A DNA stretch of 64,000 nucleotides. It comes from Ignavibacteriales bacterium. GTDB taxonomy: Bacteria > Bacteroidota > Ignavibacteria > Ignavibacteriales > Melioribacteraceae. Made by a program: the position numbers and the translations under genes. Numbering within the stretch: position 1 is the stretch's first letter; each line of letters opens with the position of its first letter. Positions 36,938 through 47,093 of the stretch are shown here, piece by piece. Location of the stretch: contig JAGUYK010000006.1 of NCBI GenBank assembly GCA_020061355.1, positions 248,001 through 312,000 on the forward strand. Direction: 5' to 3'. The notes beneath the pieces were generated by a model, which saw only the letters and a list, made by a program, of their open reading frames with translations, searched no databases and was not told the origin of the DNA.

Positions 36938-38158
36938 TTAAGAAGGATCCTCAAGCTTTCCGATAAAGAGAATACAATTGCTGTTCTTCTCCCTTATTAC
37001 AAATATGAATGGTCTATCCAATCGAATTACCGTATCCATAATTGAAGTAAGGCCGATTTCAACGGAGGTAACCGCCGCGGCTTCTGTTCCTTCTTCGTTA
37101 ACATCTACAAATGTTTTGTGCTCAACATTGCTGATGTAGGCATTCTCAGACCCATCGTAAAGCTTTTTAAAATTTGCCCCATAAGGATCGAATGCAACAC
37201 TCATACCCAAGGCTTTCAAAGTGTTATTGAGATTTAACTTGTACTCAAGTTTGAACCTCGGCATGTAGAGTTCCTTTTTCATCTTAACTAAATTACTTAT
37301 CAGCCCGCTCCATGTTGCATCTGTCAGTGAGTTCAACACGTCATTAAGTGATTTATCTTTGTCCGGCAGCAGAATTGTCATGCTGAAGCTACCTTTTCCG
37401 TATGGAAGGTCTATAACGGTAAATGTATCGTTCGAAGAAAGATAAAAATCGTTTTCGAGGTTCATCATTTTACAGGGGACTTTTTCGCCGGATTGTTTTG
37501 TGAAGAGATCGTCGCGTGTTTTATTCTTATCAAATTGATATTTCCATGTTCCTTTAAAATAGATTGCATTTATGAGGAACATAATTGTTTGCGCATCAAT
37601 CTTTTCAACTATCTTATCGATCTTACCGTTTGTGGATTCCTTAACCCAGTTGTTTATTATGTTAATTGTAGCAGGATCGCCAAAGTTCATCGGGTTTATC
37701 GTTGCATTGAAATATTTCCGGTTGGTTTCTATAAAATTCTGTTTGAAAGGGATTGTGTTACGGTACCAGATAGAATTGGCAATCTGTATAATTACTTCGC
37801 GGTCTATCTTAGTTAGAAGTTCTATAAGCGATTGATATGATTCGTTCGTTTCTTGCTGGGTGATATCCGCTAATGATAATGTTTTGCGCATCGCATCGTA
37901 TGTTTCACCTTCGGCCCCGTTGAGGGTCATTCCAAGCGCCATTGCAATGCTTAGAGGAGAAATGAATACATTCTTTTCCTGTTCGGCTTCGGCAATTTTT
38001 TTGAATATTTTTAACGAGAAATTATCTGCTGAAGAAACAAGTTGCTTTTCTATACGCGTTAGTTCGCGGATGGGTACCTCGTCGCTGTATTGTGAGGACG
38101 TTTCGCACCCGGCGCAGATAATAATCATTGAAGCGAGAATAACTTTTAATTTACCCAT
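36938..38158 (-). CDS. serpin-family protease inhibitor, probable lipoprotein
   Basis: A 406-residue serpin. The signal sequence ends CAGC (Cys18), a plausible but not textbook lipobox. The body has FKIFKKIAEAEQEKNVFISP and SIAMALGMTLNGAEGETYDA. The reactive loop hinge EEGTEAAAVTSVEIG (residues 355-369) has the small residues needed for loop insertion, so it should be inhibitory. The P1 residue lies near Leu370-Ser372. The end has the breach motif RPFIFVIREKNSNCILFIG. Bacterial serpins trap serine or cysteine proteases. Lipoprotein anchoring would place it in the envelope, next to a peptidase gene. Confidence 0.9.
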   Translation of the reverse strand: MGKLKVILASMIIICAGCETSSQYSDEVPIRELTRIEKQLVSSADNFSLKIFKKIAEAEQEKNVFISPLSIAMALGMTLNGAEGETYDAMRKTLSLADITQQETNESYQSLIELLTKIDREVIIQIANSIWYRNTIPFKQNFIETNRKYFNATINPMNFGDPATINIINNWVKESTNGKIDKIVEKIDAQTIMFLINAIYFKGTWKYQFDKNKTRDDLFTKQSGEKVPCKMMNLENDFYLSSNDTFTVIDLPYGKGSFSMTILLPDKDKSLNDVLNSLTDATWSGLISNLVKMKKELYMPRFKLEYKLNLNNTLKALGMSVAFDPYGANFKKLYDGSENAYISNVEHKTFVDVNEEGTEAAAVTSVEIGLTSIMDTVIRLDRPFIFVIREKNSNCILFIGKLEDPS

Positions 38159-38283: not shown

Positions 38284-40674
38284 TTATTTTATGGCTGTGA
38301 CTTCAATTTCATATACAAGACTGGTAAACGGGGGAATGATAAATCGTTTTTTCCCTTCGATCATCTTCGCATAGAAACCATTATTGCCGTAAGCTTTATC
38401 GAATGGTACAACAACTTTTCGTTTTTCACCGGATTTCATTTCACTTAAAATCTCGTCAAGTCCCGGATTTATCTTTGTCGTACCGATTGTGTAGCTAAAA
38501 GTTTCCGGAGCAACGATATAATTAGTTGGTTTTCCATCTTCGCTTGTGCTAACGAATGGAAACTCTTTTAAAAGTGACGTCCCCCTGTAGCTGACCGTTA
38601 ATATTGACCCGGTGTTCGGTTTTTCGACTATACCTTCTTTTATAATAGTATACTTCACACCACTCACAGTTGATTTAGCTCCCGGCAAAACTTTTTTAAT
38701 CGCAATCTCTTCATCTTTTGCTCTTTTTTCTTCTTCAACCTTTACTTTTGTTTTTGCTTCTTCAACCATTTTTCGGAATGATTCATCAGTAACATTAAAT
38801 TTATTTGCCTTCTCACCGATTCTAGTTATTGAAACACTCTTAATCGTATCGCCCTGAACTATTTTTTCAACTACATCCATTCCTTCTGCAACCCAGCCGA
38901 ACAATGTATAATTTCCATCAAGATAAGAACGGTCGCCGAGTGTAATGTAGAATTGACTTCCGTTAGTATGCGGACCTGCATTAGCCATTCCAAGCATTCC
39001 GGCTTTATCATGACTAAGTTTTGAATAGATCTCATTCGGGAATTGATATCCAGGTCCTTCAGTTTCTTTTACTGTTTTAGGCATGCCGGCTTGAATCACA
39101 TGACCCGGTACGACGCGGTGCCAGATGGATCCGTTATAATATGGCATTTCTTCTTTAAGAGCTTCATTCTTTATCTTGCCTTCTGCAAGTCCTATAAAGT
39201 TTGCTGCGGTCATTGGAACGTTTTCGTAATCTAGTGCCAATGTAATTCTTCCCTTGTTGGTGTTCAGATCAGCATAAACTCCGTCGTGTAAGAATGCACC
39301 TTCGCGCGGAATAAGTTGATCCATATTAGCCATTTGATATGCAAGCAGAGCATAAACAAGTGCGCTGTGTTCCTGCGCGTCGGGAATTATTTGATCATAA
39401 GTATCGAGCATGCTGTGCCATGTTGTTCCATATTGATGCGGTCCCTGTGTTCTAAGCCAAGGTGCTGGAACACCCTCCATTACAAACGAATGACTATCGG
39501 TTCCGCCTCTACCGGCACGCCTTATCATTCCGGTTTCCTGAAGTGAGAATTTGTAATTCAGATCAAGATTTTCGATTGGTTCGATTATAGGTTTAATAAA
39601 GTCATAAATTACTTTTGGAACACCCATTGCAGTAACAGGATTTGTTCCGCTATCGTTATTCATCATAATAGAAATTTTTGAGAGTTTATGTTTATTCTTT
39701 GCAACCCATGCTCTTGAGCCAATCAGACCGCGTTCTTCTGCCGCGTAGAGTTGAACCATTATTGATCGTTTTGGTTTTACGCCGGCTTTGGTGAGAATTC
39801 TAATTGCCTCCATCATTCTTGAAACACCAGATCCATTATCAACGGCACCGGTTGCATGATCGTATGAATCGAGATGTGCGCCAAGTATTACATATTCGTC
39901 GGGAAATTGAGTCCCGGGAATCCAAGCAATTACGTTATGATATTTAACAGGTCCCTGATAGAAGAAATTGCGGATATCGAATTCAAGAATTACTTCTTCA
40001 CCTTTTCCAACCAATGATTTAATTTGATTGAATTGCGTATCAATCAATTTTATGTCAGGTAAAGTCGGAAGCTCGCCCCATGATTTTATATGTCTTACAT
40101 CGAATAATCGAAAAGGAATTTTGGTTAGCTGGATTGTCCCAAGCGCACCTGCTTCAGTTAGTTTAATTGTAATCTGGTTGATTGAATCTCTATCCCGCGG
40201 GTAACCGGAATTTTCGCCATCAATTAAAACCCATGCCCCTTTAATTTTATCTTTTAACGAATCTATTTTGTTGATGTCGGTAGGTAGAACCAGAACATGC
40301 CCTTTTTGTTTTCCTTTTGTTCCCGATGTATAACCGGGCGTTCCGAATTCAAGATACAATTCAAACGGTTTGATCATTTTTCCAAACCACGGTCCGCGGT
40401 TAAATCCAACAGCTTCTTCAGCAACTTCATCCAGTTCAGCTTTCAAGCCCCATGATAGGAATTCATTCAATGCCCAATTGGCAGCATTGGTATAAGCATC
40501 GGATCCGGTTGATCTTCCGCCGAAACGGTTGCATAAGTAATCCTGGTGAACCATAGTGCGATTTTCGCTTTTGCCAATCTCAATAATTTTTTGAAAAAAT
40601 TGGTCCTGCTGGGGAAAGATGTAGGAAGAAATTAGGAAAAGGAATAGAGTGATTAAAGAGTAATAACGTTTCAT
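38284..40674 (-). CDS. exported M28 peptidase-cyclophilin-FKBP fusion
   Basis: A 796-residue protein with a signal peptide (cleavage near residue 21) and three enzyme modules. Module 1 (about 30-455) is an M28 aminopeptidase with zinc ligands and catalytic residues His267, Asp279, Glu313/Glu314, Asp341 and His420, with a PA-like insert around 120-220. Module 2 (about 465-618) is a cyclophilin: WHRVVPGHVIQAG with Arg520, GPHTNGSQFYITL, and NYTLFGWVAEGMDVVEKI. After a charged helical linker (632-665), module 3 (672-796) is an FKBP-type fold with PGLDEILSEMKSGEKRKVVV and FIIPPFTSLVYEIEV. Cleavage of N-terminal residues and two kinds of prolyl isomerisation are thus joined in one exported polypeptide. 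The frame is intact and there is no sign of a frameshift. Confidence 0.9.
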   Translation of the reverse strand: MKRYYSLITLFLFLISSYIFPQQDQFFQKIIEIGKSENRTMVHQDYLCNRFGGRSTGSDAYTNAANWALNEFLSWGLKAELDEVAEEAVGFNRGPWFGKMIKPFELYLEFGTPGYTSGTKGKQKGHVLVLPTDINKIDSLKDKIKGAWVLIDGENSGYPRDRDSINQITIKLTEAGALGTIQLTKIPFRLFDVRHIKSWGELPTLPDIKLIDTQFNQIKSLVGKGEEVILEFDIRNFFYQGPVKYHNVIAWIPGTQFPDEYVILGAHLDSYDHATGAVDNGSGVSRMMEAIRILTKAGVKPKRSIMVQLYAAEERGLIGSRAWVAKNKHKLSKISIMMNNDSGTNPVTAMGVPKVIYDFIKPIIEPIENLDLNYKFSLQETGMIRRAGRGGTDSHSFVMEGVPAPWLRTQGPHQYGTTWHSMLDTYDQIIPDAQEHSALVYALLAYQMANMDQLIPREGAFLHDGVYADLNTNKGRITLALDYENVPMTAANFIGLAEGKIKNEALKEEMPYYNGSIWHRVVPGHVIQAGMPKTVKETEGPGYQFPNEIYSKLSHDKAGMLGMANAGPHTNGSQFYITLGDRSYLDGNYTLFGWVAEGMDVVEKIVQGDTIKSVSITRIGEKANKFNVTDESFRKMVEEAKTKVKVEEEKRAKDEEIAIKKVLPGAKSTVSGVKYTIIKEGIVEKPNTGSILTVSYRGTSLLKEFPFVSTSEDGKPTNYIVAPETFSYTIGTTKINPGLDEILSEMKSGEKRKVVVPFDKAYGNNGFYAKMIEGKKRFIIPPFTSLVYEIEVTAIK

Positions 40675-40790: not shown

Positions 40791-43700
40791 ATGAAAAAAG
40801 CGACCATCCTCGTTTTTATCATATCTTCTTTTTTTCCCTCTTTCCTAATAATAGCTCAAACCGGTTCATCAATAACATTCAGTGAAATTATGTTTTATCC
40901 ACTGGAACCGAATGGAGAGTTTGTGGAGATCTATAATACCTCAACAACCGAGACATTTGATATCGCTAACTTTAAATTCAAGTACTATACATCCTCAAAC
41001 AATAATTTGCTACCGGTATCCGGCGGCACTCTTCTTGGTCCCGGAAAATTTGCTGTGATAGTTCAGGGTAATTATGATTATTCCAATGGTTTTTATAAAA
41101 CGGTAATTCCACCCGGAACAATTGTAATGAAAACCAGCGGAAATAGTTTTGGCTCATCTGGCATGGCAAACACTACAAGTCGAGAAATTAATTTGATTAA
41201 CTCTGCCGGTCAGACGATTGATACATATACGTATTCGGCTAATAATTCCGCGGGAATCCCGGATGAGAAAATCATTCTTGATAAAAATAACGGAACAGCT
41301 AACTGGTCAAATGGAAATGTATCTAATGGAACGCCCGGAAAAAAGAACTCTGTTTCGCCAACAGATTATGATTTGAGTATTGATTTCATGGAGTATTCAC
41401 CGATAATTTCGACGGCGAAAGATTCCCTATTTATAAAATTTGTAATAAAAAATTTAGGAAGAGGTCAGGCAAATAATTTTTCGATTGATATTTTTTACGA
41501 TTCTAATTCCGACTCAACGGGTCAGCAATCTGAAAATATTTTCTCTAAAACTTATGCAAGTCTTGCCGTGGATGATTCGACAATAATCACAGTTTCATTT
41601 TTCCCTCCGCTTCCGGGCGATTACCGTTTTTTGGGATTTGTTATATACGCAGCCGACGAAAAATTATCTAATAATAATATCATAAAGGTCATTGCTGTTG
41701 CTGATAAAATCACGACGTACAATGAAATAGTAATCAATGAAATTATGTACGCACCGACCGGCGATGAACCTGAGTGGATAGAAGTGTTTAATAATTCAAT
41801 ACAAACAATAAATCTAAAAAATTGGAGAATGGGTGATAATAGCGGGAGCGCAATAATTTCAAGTAGCGATTATCCGCTTGCACCGAAGGAATATCTTGTA
41901 ATTAGTAAAGACGCAATCATCGAAAGTGTACATAGCAACATTTCTAAATTACTTATTAGATCGATTCCAACATTAAATAACAGCGGAGATAATGTAATTC
42001 TCCGTGATCTATACGGTCGAACAATTGACAGCACAATATATAGTCCCTTGTGGGGTGGAAATACCGGCGGAAAATCACTTGAAAGAAAATCAACGATGGT
42101 ATCAAGCCTGGATCAAAGTAATTGGGGGTCTTCAATTAGCAGAAATAGATCAACACCGGGTGAAATAAACTCAATTTCACAAAAAGATTTTGATCTATCG
42201 GTCATCTCGTTAACAAGTATATCTCCTTATGCAGAAACAGGAAAAGAATTGATTTTAAATACTTTAATAAAAAATACAGGGGTGATGAGAGCCGAGAATT
42301 TCGAAATAAGATTATATCGGGATGAAAATCTAAATCAAATCGGCGAAGACTTAGAATTGATTAGCCAGAAGGAAATATTAGCATTGGAGCAGGATCAAAT
42401 TATCAACGAACAATTTACCACACAGGATTTTACTGCCGGAACAAATCAATTTATAGTCTCGATAAACTTTACTCTTGATGAATTCCCGGATAACAATTCT
42501 TTCTTATTTAGTATTACCGGTGTAGAGATAAACGAGATGCGCGGTGATTTAGTGATTAATGAAATAATGTATGCACCTAATGCACCGGAACCTGAATGGA
42601 TAGAAGTTTTCAATCGCAGCACCAAGCAGATTAACATGCTTGGTTATAAAATTGCAGATGATGCCACAATAACAAGAGTGATTAATTCTCCTCTTTTATT
42701 AAGTTCCGGAAATTATCTCGTAATTGCAAAAGACAGTTCTATAGTGGATAAGCACGGATCTATATCAGCGCTTGCAATAAGTAATTTCGCGACAATGAAC
42801 AATTCGCATGACTGCGCTGTGCTTCTTGATTCATTGAATCGCGTTATTGATTCGCTGGATTACAAATCAACGTGGGGCGGGACAAATGGTAAATCTCTCG
42901 AAAGAATAGACGTAAATAATCCTCCAACCGACTCTTCAAATTGGAAAACTTCAAAAGCAATTCAGGGTTCAACCCCGGGACGTTTCAATTCTGTAACTCT
43001 ATATGATTATAATCTCTCAGTCTCGATTATTTCGCACTCACCATTGCTGCCTGTAAGAGGGGATTCGATAATAGTAACTATAGGGATTGATAATGTTGGG
43101 AAGAACGCCGCACAAAGTTTTTCTCTTGAGCTCCATGATGATATAAATTATGACAGCACGGCTAATAGTAGCGAACGGATCTTCGTAAAAAATTATCAAT
43201 TGCTGAAAGAGAATTCCTCGCTAACAGAACAAATAAAAATTCTTACAGATGAAGTCCGTTTATATAGGATAATTGCAAAAGTAAATTTCGATTTTGATGA
43301 AGACTTAACAAATAATACATCAATGACAGAATTTATAGTTGCGGAAATTCCGGCGAGCATTAATGATATTGTAATTAATGAGATAATGTTTGCCCCGGCG
43401 GGTGATGAACCGGAGTGGATTGAATTATATAACCGCTCTAACCGTGAATTGAATTTGAAAAACTGGAAGCTCGGCGACAATACATCTCTAACACCGATAT
43501 CAACCACAGATTATATTATTGTTGCTGGTGAATACCTTATTATAAGCAGTGAATCAAACCTCGCAAATTTCTATAACATTCCATCTAAATTAATAAGCAC
43601 GCCTTTTCCGGGTTTAAGCAACACAGGTGATGATGTTAAACTAAAAGATAATCTGAATAGAACAATAGACAGTCTGAAGTATTTACCGGTCTGGGGCGGT

Positions 43701-46700
43701 ACCGGCGGAAAATCACTTGAACGGAAGTGTGCCGATTCCATCTCCGTAAATAAATCGAATTGGGGATCATCTATTAGTAAATTTCGGGCTACACCGGGAA
43801 CAAAAAATTCGATTACACAGCGGTATAAAGATCTGGCAATTAGGAATTTTAGATTCAATTATAAATATGCATACGATGATTTAACGGCATCGGCACTTTT
43901 CTGGATTATGAATATCGGAATCGAATTAGCCGAAAAGTATCAATATAAGGTATATAATGACTTAAATAATAATCAGGATTTGGAGTTAGACGAGTTGATA
44001 AACGAAGGAAGAGGAAATTCAATACTATCAAAAGATAGCGTTAGAATTGAATTTGTTCCGTCAAAATATTTGCTGGGCGAGAACATAATTTATGTAGCAA
44101 TTGAATATGAGGGTGATGAGAATCCTGAAAATGACCGGTCAGTTGCAAAAATAATCGGTGTTAAGCCATCCGAACAAAGAGGAGACCTTGTTATAAACGA
44201 AATTATGTATTTGCCAAACTTTCCGGAACCCGAATGGATTGAAATATTTAATAAGAGCAACAAAATAATAAATCTTAAAAGTTACCGGATTGCCGATTAC
44301 ACCTCAAAAGCATCAATTACGCAGAAAGACTTTTTTGTTCAGCCGGGGGAATATATTGTTATTTCAAGAGATACAAATATTTTATCACTCTATATTGACT
44401 TGAGCAAAGTAATTATAGCAACAATTCCATCTCTGAATAACGGCGGAGATAGAGTTGTACTTTCCGATTCGCTCAATCGAACTATTGATTCATTGGATTA
44501 TAAATCAACCTGGGGCGGAACATCGGGTAAGTCGCTTGAAAGAATTGATACGGATCGACCCGCAGTTGATTCAACGAATTGGAAAACGGCAACTGCGGAA
44601 AGAGGAACTCCGGGTAAAATAAATTCGGTTTCAAAAAAGAATTTTGATGTTCGATTAACTAATCCAAGGATTTATCCCGAGAAACCGTTAATCGGGGAAA
44701 GTGTTAATATTAATGTTGCTATCTGGAATCCAGGCAAGAATTTAGCCTCATTTGTTTTTAAGCTTTATGAAATACTGGAAGGTGAACAAAAAATATTATT
44801 AAAAGAAACGAACGTTATTATTTCACCTTTGGAAGATGTACTTTTTTTCAAAACGGAAATGGAATATCAGTTTGAAATCCAAAACAAAACAAGAAAATTT
44901 GAATACTTTGCCGATTTTCCACTTGATGAGGATACTACGAATAATAGAATTACATTAAAGGTTCAGCCGGGATTTCATCCCGGATCAGTGGTAATAAATG
45001 AAATTATGTATAACCCGGTTAACGGCGAACCCGAATGGATTGAACTCTACAACAATTCGGAATATGATATCGATCTTGAAGGTTGGTCTATAACCGACAT
45101 TTTAACTACGCCAGTTAAAACGAAGATACAATCAAAGAGCATATTCTTTCCAGGCGAATCATTGCTTGTAATTGCGAAAGATAGAACGGTTAACAATTTC
45201 CATCGTTCAATTCCCTCACAATTAATAATAAACACTTTTGCAAATCTTAACAATGATGCAGATGGTGTTGTAATAAAAGATGTACACGATGTTACAATTG
45301 ATTCAGTAAGGTATGACAAATCATGGGGAGGCGAAAGCGGAAAATCTCTTGAACGTAAATCTCTCTATGATCCATCAAATCATCGCCTTAATTGGAGTTC
45401 ATCAAAAGATGTTGAATTGAGTACGCCGGGAAGAATTAACAGTATTTACCCAAAGGAATATGATTTAACAATAACCGGAATTACAATTGCACCTCTTTAT
45501 GCTGCTTATGATGAAGACGTTAGTATTACGGCTCAGGTATTTAATAACGGGTTGCAAACCGCCTCTCAATTTTCCGTGAATTTTTATTTCATTACAGGAA
45601 ATGACACTTTGTTTTTCAGTCAGGGCAACGGTACAAACTTATCCTCTAAAGATTCGATGCTAGTTTTTTCGGTGGCAAAAATAAAATTAGATAATCCCCG
45701 GCGGGTTTATTGCAAAGTAATATATACAGAAGACATGGATACGCTGAATAATTATTATGCAGCAGACGTCAATTCGGGTTATAAAAGAAATTCGGTTGTA
45801 GTAAGTGAGATTATGTATAATCCGCTTGATGACGAACCGGAATGGATTGAGATTGTAAATAATTCTACAGCACAAATAAATTTAAAAGACTGGAAAGTCA
45901 CGGATCTAATTCCCTCTACAACTAAAGTAAATATTTCAAACAAAGATTTGATATTAGAACCCGGTGATTATGCAATACTAACACCGGACACAAATAAATT
46001 TATGTTTTATCCTCCCCTTAATTTTTTACAGGTGAAATTCGGCTCGCTTGGAAACGCAAATGATGGTATTGCTTTGTTCGATTTCCGCGGTGCAATTATA
46101 GACAGTGTTATCTACAGTTCGAAGTGGGGTGGGACAAAGGGATTTTCTTTAGAAAGGATCTCTTTAAATGCCGCTGGCACCGACAGCATTAATTGGATAA
46201 CATCGTTAAACCAGTTCGGCGCTACTCCGGGTTTTCAGAATTCTATTACATTTGTCCCGCAGTATCAGTCAGGCATTCTTGTTATAAACGAGATTATGTT
46301 CGATCCGGCAACCGGCAATTCCGAGTTTATAGAGTTTTACAATACTTCAACCGATTCACTTCAAATAGGCGGAATGAATTTGATTTGTGGGGGGAATAAA
46401 AAAATTCCTCTTTCACAAACATATTATAAACTTCCACCGCATTCTTATTTGGTCTTTGCGCATGATTCATCGCTTTACGGTAACTATAACAGATTCATGA
46501 TGGAAGGAAATCATCTGTTTTTTAATAGTTCATTAAGTTTATCAAACGAAGGGGCAGAAATTGTTTTAAGAGATTCGCGCAATACAAAATTAGATTCGGT
46601 TTATTATTCTCCTAATTGGCACAATAGAAATCTTGTTACAACAAAAAACCGTTCTTTAGAAAGATTAAATCCGCTACTCGGTTCTAATGAAAGTTCAAAT

Positions 46701-47093
46701 TGGAGTTCTTCTGTTGAACAGGAGGGTGCTTCACCATGCAAAGCTAATTCAGTTTTTACAGAAACGGTTATTACTCAATCCAAAGTGATAGTATCGCCTA
46801 ATCCATTTTCTCCGGATAACGACGGCTTTGAAGATTTTACAACTATTAATTTTAATCTGGCACAGAGAATTGCACAGGTAAGGATAAAAGTTTTTGACAG
46901 TCAGGGACGGCTTGTTAGAACGGTTGCGCATAATCGTCCTTCGGGCCCATCCAACTCAGTAATTTTTAACGGATTGGACGATAACAATAGACCTCTTAAA
47001 ATAGGAATTTATATATTGCTTATCGAAATTGTAACGGATTCGGGTGAATCGGAAACTCTTAAGCTTCCGGTTGTAGTTGCAAGAAAACTCTAA
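40791..47093 (+). CDS. 2100-residue lamin-tail-domain repeat surface protein
   Basis: An exported giant protein (signal peptide to about residue 24). It has eight lamin-tail domains, each starting with a variant of VINEIMYAPTGDEPEWIE: at residues 31, 313, 587, 860, 1133, 1400, 1669 and 1830. Each ends with a WGG...KSLERK segment. The spacing is about 270 residues because a CARDB-like domain follows each of the first seven; the eighth LTD follows after only 161 residues. The C-terminus (about 2000-2100), with VSPNPFSPDNDGFEDF, is a FlgD/CHU-type Ig-like module often used for surface sorting in this phylum. A structural or adhesive surface role is inferred. Confidence 0.85.
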   Translation: MKKATILVFIISSFFPSFLIIAQTGSSITFSEIMFYPLEPNGEFVEIYNTSTTETFDIANFKFKYYTSSNNNLLPVSGGTLLGPGKFAVIVQGNYDYSNGFYKTVIPPGTIVMKTSGNSFGSSGMANTTSREINLINSAGQTIDTYTYSANNSAGIPDEKIILDKNNGTANWSNGNVSNGTPGKKNSVSPTDYDLSIDFMEYSPIISTAKDSLFIKFVIKNLGRGQANNFSIDIFYDSNSDSTGQQSENIFSKTYASLAVDDSTIITVSFFPPLPGDYRFLGFVIYAADEKLSNNNIIKVIAVADKITTYNEIVINEIMYAPTGDEPEWIEVFNNSIQTINLKNWRMGDNSGSAIISSSDYPLAPKEYLVISKDAIIESVHSNISKLLIRSIPTLNNSGDNVILRDLYGRTIDSTIYSPLWGGNTGGKSLERKSTMVSSLDQSNWGSSISRNRSTPGEINSISQKDFDLSVISLTSISPYAETGKELILNTLIKNTGVMRAENFEIRLYRDENLNQIGEDLELISQKEILALEQDQIINEQFTTQDFTAGTNQFIVSINFTLDEFPDNNSFLFSITGVEINEMRGDLVINEIMYAPNAPEPEWIEVFNRSTKQINMLGYKIADDATITRVINSPLLLSSGNYLVIAKDSSIVDKHGSISALAISNFATMNNSHDCAVLLDSLNRVIDSLDYKSTWGGTNGKSLERIDVNNPPTDSSNWKTSKAIQGSTPGRFNSVTLYDYNLSVSIISHSPLLPVRGDSIIVTIGIDNVGKNAAQSFSLELHDDINYDSTANSSERIFVKNYQLLKENSSLTEQIKILTDEVRLYRIIAKVNFDFDEDLTNNTSMTEFIVAEIPASINDIVINEIMFAPAGDEPEWIELYNRSNRELNLKNWKLGDNTSLTPISTTDYIIVAGEYLIISSESNLANFYNIPSKLISTPFPGLSNTGDDVKLKDNLNRTIDSLKYLPVWGGTGGKSLERKCADSISVNKSNWGSSISKFRATPGTKNSITQRYKDLAIRNFRFNYKYAYDDLTASALFWIMNIGIELAEKYQYKVYNDLNNNQDLELDELINEGRGNSILSKDSVRIEFVPSKYLLGENIIYVAIEYEGDENPENDRSVAKIIGVKPSEQRGDLVINEIMYLPNFPEPEWIEIFNKSNKIINLKSYRIADYTSKASITQKDFFVQPGEYIVISRDTNILSLYIDLSKVIIATIPSLNNGGDRVVLSDSLNRTIDSLDYKSTWGGTSGKSLERIDTDRPAVDSTNWKTATAERGTPGKINSVSKKNFDVRLTNPRIYPEKPLIGESVNINVAIWNPGKNLASFVFKLYEILEGEQKILLKETNVIISPLEDVLFFKTEMEYQFEIQNKTRKFEYFADFPLDEDTTNNRITLKVQPGFHPGSVVINEIMYNPVNGEPEWIELYNNSEYDIDLEGWSITDILTTPVKTKIQSKSIFFPGESLLVIAKDRTVNNFHRSIPSQLIINTFANLNNDADGVVIKDVHDVTIDSVRYDKSWGGESGKSLERKSLYDPSNHRLNWSSSKDVELSTPGRINSIYPKEYDLTITGITIAPLYAAYDEDVSITAQVFNNGLQTASQFSVNFYFITGNDTLFFSQGNGTNLSSKDSMLVFSVAKIKLDNPRRVYCKVIYTEDMDTLNNYYAADVNSGYKRNSVVVSEIMYNPLDDEPEWIEIVNNSTAQINLKDWKVTDLIPSTTKVNISNKDLILEPGDYAILTPDTNKFMFYPPLNFLQVKFGSLGNANDGIALFDFRGAIIDSVIYSSKWGGTKGFSLERISLNAAGTDSINWITSLNQFGATPGFQNSITFVPQYQSGILVINEIMFDPATGNSEFIEFYNTSTDSLQIGGMNLICGGNKKIPLSQTYYKLPPHSYLVFAHDSSLYGNYNRFMMEGNHLFFNSSLSLSNEGAEIVLRDSRNTKLDSVYYSPNWHNRNLVTTKNRSLERLNPLLGSNESSNWSSSVEQEGASPCKANSVFTETVITQSKVIVSPNPFSPDNDGFEDFTTINFNLAQRIAQVRIKVFDSQGRLVRTVAHNRPSGPSNSVIFNGLDDNNRPLKIGIYILLIEIVTDSGESETLKLPVVVARKL
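40881..46700 (+). repeat. in-gene tandem LTD plus CARDB repeat array
   Basis: Seven full units at a period of 267-285 codons, plus an eighth LTD, judged by the position of the EIMY-type motif. Starts of that motif in the DNA are 40881, 41727, 42549, 43368, 44187, 44988, 45795 and 46278. The copies have diverged at the DNA level, so they are old and not a recent slippage product. Confidence 0.85.

Follow-up and report, generated by a model that had tools for sequence, protein, structure and literature searches.

A predicted exported chain joining an M28 peptidase to a cyclophilin and an FKBP-type domain in Ignavibacteriales

Introduction

What might a peptidase do with two kinds of prolyl isomerase in its own chain? 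This question is raised by a gene in a 64,000-nucleotide stretch of the genome of an Ignavibacteriales bacterium of the Melioribacteraceae (assembly GCA_020061355.1, contig JAGUYK010000006.1, positions 248,001 to 312,000 of the forward strand; hereafter the window), in which an M28 peptidase, a cyclophilin and an FKBP-type domain follow one another in one frame (Table 1). A sequence-only reading of the window had taken the product for three enzymes in one exported chain, regarded two prolyl isomerase families in one chain as rare and their joining to a peptidase as rarer still, and proposed that the chain trims peptides whose Xaa-Pro bonds block cleavage in the periplasm. Our searches showed that the cyclophilin–FKBP half is of a known kind, the dual-family immunophilins or CFBPs, and that the joining to a peptidase is without a report that we could find in the open-access literature; it brings protein-folding catalysis and proteolysis together in one exported chain.

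Domain layout and catalytic residues

All three domains matched their Pfam models above the gathering scores, namely Peptidase_M28 at residues 247–441 (4.6e-34), Pro_isomerase at residues 468–612 (1.7e-39) and FKBP_C at residues 684–792 (1.7e-13, profile positions 3–93 of 94). The junction between the peptidase and the cyclophilin is short, the two Pfam matches being no more than 26 residues apart, while the linker between the two isomerase domains (residues 623–683) is the least conserved stretch apart from the signal peptide; the FKBP-type domain has an insertion after F707. In 16/16 intact chains of the family described below the N-terminus is hydrophobic with no Cys at positions 15–26 (no lipobox), and Gln22, the predicted start of the mature protein, is invariant. 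The latter fits a pattern of Gln after the signal peptidase site described for Bacteroidetes in an excerpt of PMC5837995, which gives Ignavibacterium album a Q-value of 77%. We predict that the chain is exported by a Sec signal peptide of the signal peptidase I type, to the periplasm or further.

The M28 part aligned over residues 47–451 with its best solved relative, 3iib, which carries the name 'Peptidase M28' only. His267, Asp279, Glu313/314, Asp341 and His420 match the metal ligands of 3iib and are invariant in the 16 aligned intact chains, i.e., the two-zinc ligand set and general-base Glu of the M28 family are present. The cyclophilin part matched the solved 1w74 across the domain (3.4e-31), with the catalytic Arg520 and the NGSQF signature (residues 571–575) aligned; these, along with Asn565 and Gln574, are invariant in 16/16 intact chains. 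In the labels we use for pocket residues, which we take to follow human CypA and FKBP12 numbering, the equivalents of Arg55, Asn102 and Gln111 occur in all 16 chains and that of Gln63 in 15, the remaining row having unread bases there. The rest of the pocket is changed: all 16 chains have His at position 60, Val at 61 and Tyr at 113, 121 and 126, so that of the canonical CFBP cyclophilin residues R55, Q63, N102 and Q111 are kept but F60H, W121Y and H126Y replacements are found. Presumably the loss of Trp121 makes for weak cyclosporin A binding. We consider that this domain is probably still an isomerase, of altered preference.

The third part is predicted from its sequence to have an FKBP fold, as it matched both FKBP_C and solved FKBPs over almost the entire domain. 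The best-ranked of the latter, 3jxv (4.8e-13), owes its score to the sum of three weak domain matches; 5b8i matched at 1.7e-6 over positions 12–136 of its 137 residues. The pocket, on the other hand, is remodeled in 16/16 chains, with Asp37 replaced by Val, Ala, His or Phe, Ile56 by Asn, Trp59 by Leu, Ile, Val or Phe, and Phe99 by Tyr, and hence the equivalents of the canonical CFBP residues D37, I56 and W59 are all gone. As Asn736 and Tyr788 are fixed in all 16 chains despite these losses, the pattern points to a conserved, retuned pocket and not to decay, and the domain is probably a poor isomerase with a mainly binding function. The NCBIfam BamJ model scored only 38.8 bits against this part (cutoff 100).

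The uninterrupted exported frame, the zinc ligands, the cyclophilin signature and the FKBP assignment of the sequence-only reading were thus all borne out. Its phrase "three enzymes" is doubtful because of the pocket losses in the FKBP domain; the peptidase has its metal site and the cyclophilin its catalytic residues.

Distribution and conservation

Matches at E 1e-60 were found in 26/165 genomes of the order, and in 19 of these 165 genomes, all of one family, the three domains lie in one gene. The genus of the window accounts for five of these full chains, and three other genera contribute nine, two and three; 16 are intact (one with a few unread bases), two are cut at contig ends and one has an in-frame TAG. 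In two further genomes the gene is entered at a contig end, one of them with an in-frame TAG. The other matches lack a domain: G007 has the M28 and cyclophilin parts only, its frame ending at a natural stop past the cyclophilin with nothing further on that matched FKBP, G126 and G053 have a cyclophilin–FKBP protein without M28, and G016 and G025 have M28 only. Samples of 392 genomes from the class and 395 from the phylum gave, among the matches listed, no full chain outside the family. In a scan of named genomes, limited to the best 80 of 490 relatives (79 loci), the carriers of full chains were assemblies named Melioribacter, Melioribacteraceae, Ignavibacteria or Ignavibacteriales, Ignavibacteriae or Bacteroidetes, which suggests that the family in question is the Melioribacteraceae. 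A search of viral contigs gave no relative, and among the matches listed for plasmids there were single-part matches only, none covering 80%.

The occurrence of the full chain in so many genomes of one family argues that the fusion is not due to chance, and it has been kept across several genera at 56–83% identity. Ratios of nonsynonymous to synonymous substitution rates (dN/dS) for nine related gene pairs were 0.03–0.10 for M28, 0.02–0.17 for the cyclophilin and 0.05–0.18 for the FKBP domain, rough values as many dS exceeded 1, and each domain is under purifying selection in 9/9 pairs. Mean pairwise identity, from an alignment of the 16 intact chains that left out the three other full chains, was 0.68–0.69 for M28, 0.81 for the cyclophilin, 0.56 for the FKBP domain and 0.52 for the linker.

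Two members of this group have unusual compositions. In one Melioribacter assembly (G136; L138:10001-12784, equal to L034:1501-4284) the triple chain runs on into a retropepsin-like aspartyl protease domain (PF13975), giving a protein of 928 residues with two peptidases and two isomerases, and a protein-kinase-like open reading frame starts ~20 bases past its stop. In the G053 gene (L011/L150) a signal-peptide region resembling the one in the triple chain is joined directly to the cyclophilin, the M28 part being missing; this gene is on a 4.7-kb contig with a coverage of 0.9 and may reflect a real deletion, a transfer or an assembly error.

Relatives with other architectures

Outside the family the closest architectures differ at the C-terminal end of the peptidase. 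M28-only relatives in Bacteroidales had 40–45% identity over about residues 1–464 (45–48% by multiple alignment). In Holophagales (Acidobacteriota), two named assemblies and four more genomes of the class (6/93) encode an M28 with a cyclophilin-like tail, in which the junction is similar to that of the window chain and the HR..PG..Q and NGSQF regions are absent, with no Pfam cyclophilin match in the two scanned. The tails of other Acidobacteriota M28 proteins end at a segment resembling the start of the window linker, and three of four scanned non-Holophagales tails had a Pfam cyclophilin match (4.5e-4 to 9.2e-5, two just above gathering; L251 had none). When 15 tailed Acidobacteriota proteins, chosen because their match runs past the M28 end, were realigned, 15/15 were without equivalents of Gln63, Asn102 and Gln111, although, as the equivalent of Arg55 could not be placed with confidence, some activity may be left. 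The Acidobacteriota G1123 and G1228 have an M28 with no tail, which groups with the M28-only proteins of Bacteroidales. In Planctomycetota, where 52 of 279 sampled genomes matched some part, M28 proteins of the window lineage (L263–L267) end in a PDZ domain (5/5 scanned).

The cyclophilin–FKBP module also occurs apart from M28. Many genomes of Bacteroidota, Acidobacteriota and Planctomycetota encode cyclophilin–linker–FKBP proteins, and exported stand-alone versions exist. In an Acidobacteriota class of 142 genomes, 22 had an M28 of the window lineage, 22 had a cyclophilin–FKBP protein and eight had both, against 3.4 expected (Fisher p 0.007), a statistic from hand-made lists without correction for kinship, in which the 22 M28 genomes include the tail-less G1123 and G1228 and others with unread tails (among them G1134, G1136 and G1137). 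On re-search, a cyclophilin–FKBP protein was also found in three of seven tailed-M28 genomes from a sample of the phylum (297 genomes), and in 0/6 of those from the Holophagales class. Two Acidobacteriota genomes (G1155 and G1156; L270:650-4276 and L271:640-4500) encode an exported cyclophilin–FKBP module followed in the same frame by a GH127 beta-L-arabinofuranosidase, with a weak F5/8 match below cutoff after it. Thus M28 is joined on the N-terminal side of the module and GH127 on the C-terminal side; the subtype of the GH127-fused module was assigned by visual inspection of the pocket motifs.

That subtype is defined by the pockets. The cyclophilin–FKBP protein of G126 has the same pocket pattern as the full chains, and four of six Acidobacteriota proteins share it in varied form (with Cys at 113 in three, and with Ile at 36, Cys at 37 and Thr at 56 in the fourth). 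In the remaining two Acidobacteriota proteins, as in 4/4 flavobacterial CFBPs, cyclophilin Phe60, Met61 and His126 and FKBP Asp37 are retained, and position 121 is Trp or His. All four flavobacterial proteins also retain FKBP Ile56, as does whichever of these two Acidobacteriota proteins could be read to that point, namely one. The cyclophilin pocket of G053 is mixed (Phe60, His121, Tyr126), and G007, which has lost the FKBP domain, has Gln60 and Ala121. Judged by these residues, the cyclophilin–FKBP half of the full chains is a distinct subtype.

Origin of the fusion

In a tree of the M28 domain the full chains grouped with the tailed Acidobacteriota proteins, apart from the M28-only proteins of Bacteroidales (support 90/79); in a further tree, to which the Planctomycetota M28–PDZ proteins were added, these formed a deeper branch. 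The grouping of full chains with tailed Acidobacteriota points to a single old M28–cyclophilin fusion, which we regard as likely but not proven. In the corresponding tree of the cyclophilin–FKBP half, the full chains, the G007 cyclophilin and the cyclophilin–FKBP proteins of G126, G053 and four Acidobacteriota made up one clade (100/100). The rows of these trees were thinned by hand, the cyclophilin–FKBP tree with Acidobacteriota consisting of 31 of 42 earlier rows and eight new ones. In an earlier cyclophilin–FKBP set, two members (L033 and L047) had about 26–30 residues repeated through an overlapping match, the effect of which should be small, columns less than 30% filled having been dropped.

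The G126 protein lies at the same locus as the full chains, beside the same giant LTD protein, and represents either loss of M28 or a pre-fusion state. The approximately unbiased test of its placement gave p 0.23, and with the Acidobacteriota rows included, holding the fused rows together gave p 0.0465. The separate genes of Acidobacteriota may have arisen by splitting of the triple chain, or the triple chain by joining of such genes. A gene pair of M28 and CFBP in Flavobacteriaceae was rejected as ancestor of the fusion, as its M28 is just 24–31% identical and on a far branch, and is a weak hint only. The arrangement itself, a different M28 gene directly upstream of the CFBP gene on the same strand, was seen at five of 40 Flavobacteriaceae-type loci (L099, L100, L103, L106 and L113), where the CFBP gene has no apparent signal peptide.

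Possible roles of the chain

The peptidases of this lineage end in different modules, be it a cyclophilin–FKBP module, a cyclophilin alone (G007), a degraded cyclophilin (Acidobacteriota) or a PDZ domain (Planctomycetota). From this, the intact active sites of the peptidase and cyclophilin, the purifying selection on all three domains and the retuned but conserved FKBP pocket, we tentatively favor, at somewhat under even confidence, a reading in which the chain would be an exported M28 zinc exopeptidase with a polypeptide-binding arm at its C-terminus, a diverged dual-family immunophilin. The cyclophilin, joined closely to M28, would grip peptides or longer chains beside the M28 cleft and might still turn Xaa-Pro bonds, the FKBP domain on its charged linker could be a second, mainly binding, chaperone-like arm, and the M28 unit would remove terminal residues or cut short peptides. 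The arm would then recognize and hold the substrate and have no part in the cut, much as PDZ domains serve periplasmic proteases in recognition and holding. That Acidobacteriota keep a cyclophilin which has lost three active-site positions speaks for binding or a structural function, and the presence of this degraded domain and of the Planctomycetota PDZ at the same end of the peptidase favors holding over isomerizing.

Several observations weigh against such an arm. The GH127 fusion of the same subtype fits a folding helper equally well; M28-only relatives are abundant, including G1123 and G1228, which argues that the peptidase does not need an arm; and the cyclophilin–FKBP proteins without M28 in G126 and G053 (the latter on its 4.7-kb contig) argue against an obligatory coupling. 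Most characterized M28 enzymes use short substrates, for which no holding arm would be needed. In addition, support for the tailed-M28 clade falls to 81/52 when PDZ rows are added, and the Arg55 equivalent of the degraded cyclophilins is unplaceable, with an Arg near the column in most of the 15 rows.

The GH127 fusion shows the module not to be tied to proteolysis and so keeps alive a serious though unlikely alternative, that the cyclophilin–FKBP module helps its own hydrolase to fold after export and has no catalytic part. Attachment of one subtype to M28 and to GH127 in different bacteria agrees with this, as do the exported stand-alone versions and the chaperone action in vitro reported in the text excerpted from PMC6316441. 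However, the M28-only relatives do without the module at 40–45% identity, the 15 tailed Acidobacteriota proteins have lost three cyclophilin active-site positions, and clade-wide remodeling of both pockets would be unexpected of a general foldase.

The same fusions could also be read, rather doubtfully, as a hitherto undescribed class of exported hydrolases with a special cyclophilin–FKBP subtype, whose retuned pockets might read one peptide or protein feature instead of proline generally, as a shared module for envelope or extracellular substrates. Such a module would act in cis on M28 in Melioribacteraceae, would be loaned to the GH127 glycosidase, and in some Acidobacteriota would be spread over two proteins, a peptidase that carries the degraded cyclophilin and an isomerase partner encoded separately.

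We find it improbable that two independent periplasmic activities are simply tethered for co-expression, functionally uncoupled. G126, with a cyclophilin–FKBP protein alone at the same locus, and the Acidobacteriota that carry the two parts as separate genes would suit this, but the retention of one fusion over several genera speaks against it, and the co-occurrence and repeated fusion suggest a common task. A lower probability again goes to the role originally proposed, in which the isomerases would convert cis Xaa-Pro bonds so that M28 could trim past them. The invariant Arg520, Asn565 and Gln574 and the close joining of the cyclophilin to M28 are what one would expect of it; nonetheless the subtype is also found on GH127, the cyclophilin is degraded on 15/15 tailed Acidobacteriota M28 proteins (though its Arg is unplaceable), the FKBP pocket is unlikely to catalyze, the M28 part showed no Pro-specific feature and M28 relatives exist without a tail, so the proposal found no support. 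An assembly or annotation artefact, which might be suspected as most named relatives are metagenome assemblies, has a negligible probability given 19 occurrences of the full gene among 165 genomes of the order, including assemblies of one (G012), about five (G138) and about eight (G137) contigs.

The natural variants, in which a domain is lost or degraded, a PDZ domain takes the same end in relatives or the module is attached to a glycosidase, make the role of a prolyl isomerase for a hydrolase directly testable.

Gene neighborhood

The giant protein with LTD and CARDB domains is divergent from the gene in the window, as it is in relatives from several genera, and does not have this place in others (e.g., L080, L083 and L092); a link between it and the M28–cyclophilin–FKBP gene is possible. 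Downstream neighbors vary by genome (VIT1, a YhcG-like nuclease, a methylase-like gene, a serpin), which rules out a conserved operon. Only some members of the family have a serpin adjacent or close to the gene (L088, L089, L083, L136 and L139).

Table 1. Positions in the window of the gene, its parts and the adjacent genes
Feature	Position	Strand	Remarks
Serpin, bacterial; downstream neighbor	36938..38158	(-)	
M28–cyclophilin–FKBP gene, whole	38284..40674	(-)	796 aa plus stop; ATG start, no internal stop
FKBP-type domain, residues 684-794	38293..38625	(-)	Remodeled pocket V708, N736, L739, Y788
Charged linker, residues 623-683	38626..38808	(-)	61 aa, 41% charged
Cyclophilin, residues 464-622	38809..39285	(-)	R520, Q528, N565, Q574 kept; H525, V526, Y576, Y584, Y589 altered
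M28 peptidase with N-terminal/lid region, residues 22-455	39310..40611	(-)	Metal ligands H267, D279, E313/E314, D341, H420
Signal peptide, predicted Sec/SPI, residues 1-21	40612..40674	(-)	Hydrophobic core; mature start Gln22, invariant
LTD/CARDB protein; divergent neighbor	40791..47093	(+)	2100 aa, repeated LTD + CARDB domains, C-terminal CHU_C type IX secretion signal

Comparison with known systems

Dual-family immunophilins of the form CYN–linker–FKBP are a named class (CFBP; Barik), with 278 members according to excerpts of PMC6316441 (see also PMC5852385), which report isomerase and chaperone activity in vitro and place the bacterial members chiefly in Flavobacteria, with fewer in spirochetes and proteobacteria. 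Since such proteins are also found in many genomes, the rarity claimed for two isomerase families in one chain was overstated; that of their joining to a peptidase holds within the genomes and literature searched. The words 'peptidase' and 'protease' are absent from the main text of PMC6316441 and PMC5852385, and we found no peptidase-joined CFBP among the open-access papers listed in our searches, subscription papers and domain databases being outside the search; the architecture may already stand in domain databases without annotation. The CFBPs found here in Ignavibacteria, Acidobacteriota and Planctomycetota genomes widen the range of the class beyond the groups named in the excerpts of PMC6316441.

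The window chain resembles CFBPs in the order of cyclophilin, linker of about 50–60 residues and FKBP, and across the two domains it is 35–42% identical to Flavobacteriaceae-type members. It differs from them in being exported, as predicted, in its added N-terminal M28 peptidase, and in pockets changed at positions that 4/4 flavobacterial CFBPs keep (save that one of them departs at cyclophilin position 121 and two at FKBP positions 55 and 59). Isomerases acting beyond the inner membrane are also known from the export machines of Bacteroidota, namely BamJ/BamK (PMC12578637) and the PPI subunit of the type IX translocon (PMC10994853), which are separate subunits of membrane machines, with no peptidase part described in the excerpts of these papers. 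The exported M28 proteins of Bacteroidales (e.g., Parabacteroides, L177) and the solved 3iib, with which the window M28 shares its metal ligands, end after the peptidase, without isomerase domains. Closer in layout are the tailed M28 proteins of Acidobacteriota (~38–42% identity over the matched length), which have a similar junction to the cyclophilin and, outside Holophagales, share the post-cyclophilin segment; they differ in their degraded cyclophilin and lack of FKBP, and some of the genomes that encode them have a separate cyclophilin–FKBP gene. Finally, the Planctomycetota M28–PDZ proteins have a related M28 (37–41% identity) and, like the window chain, a peptide-binding module at the C-terminus, which in their case is a PDZ domain where the window chain has its cyclophilin–FKBP half.

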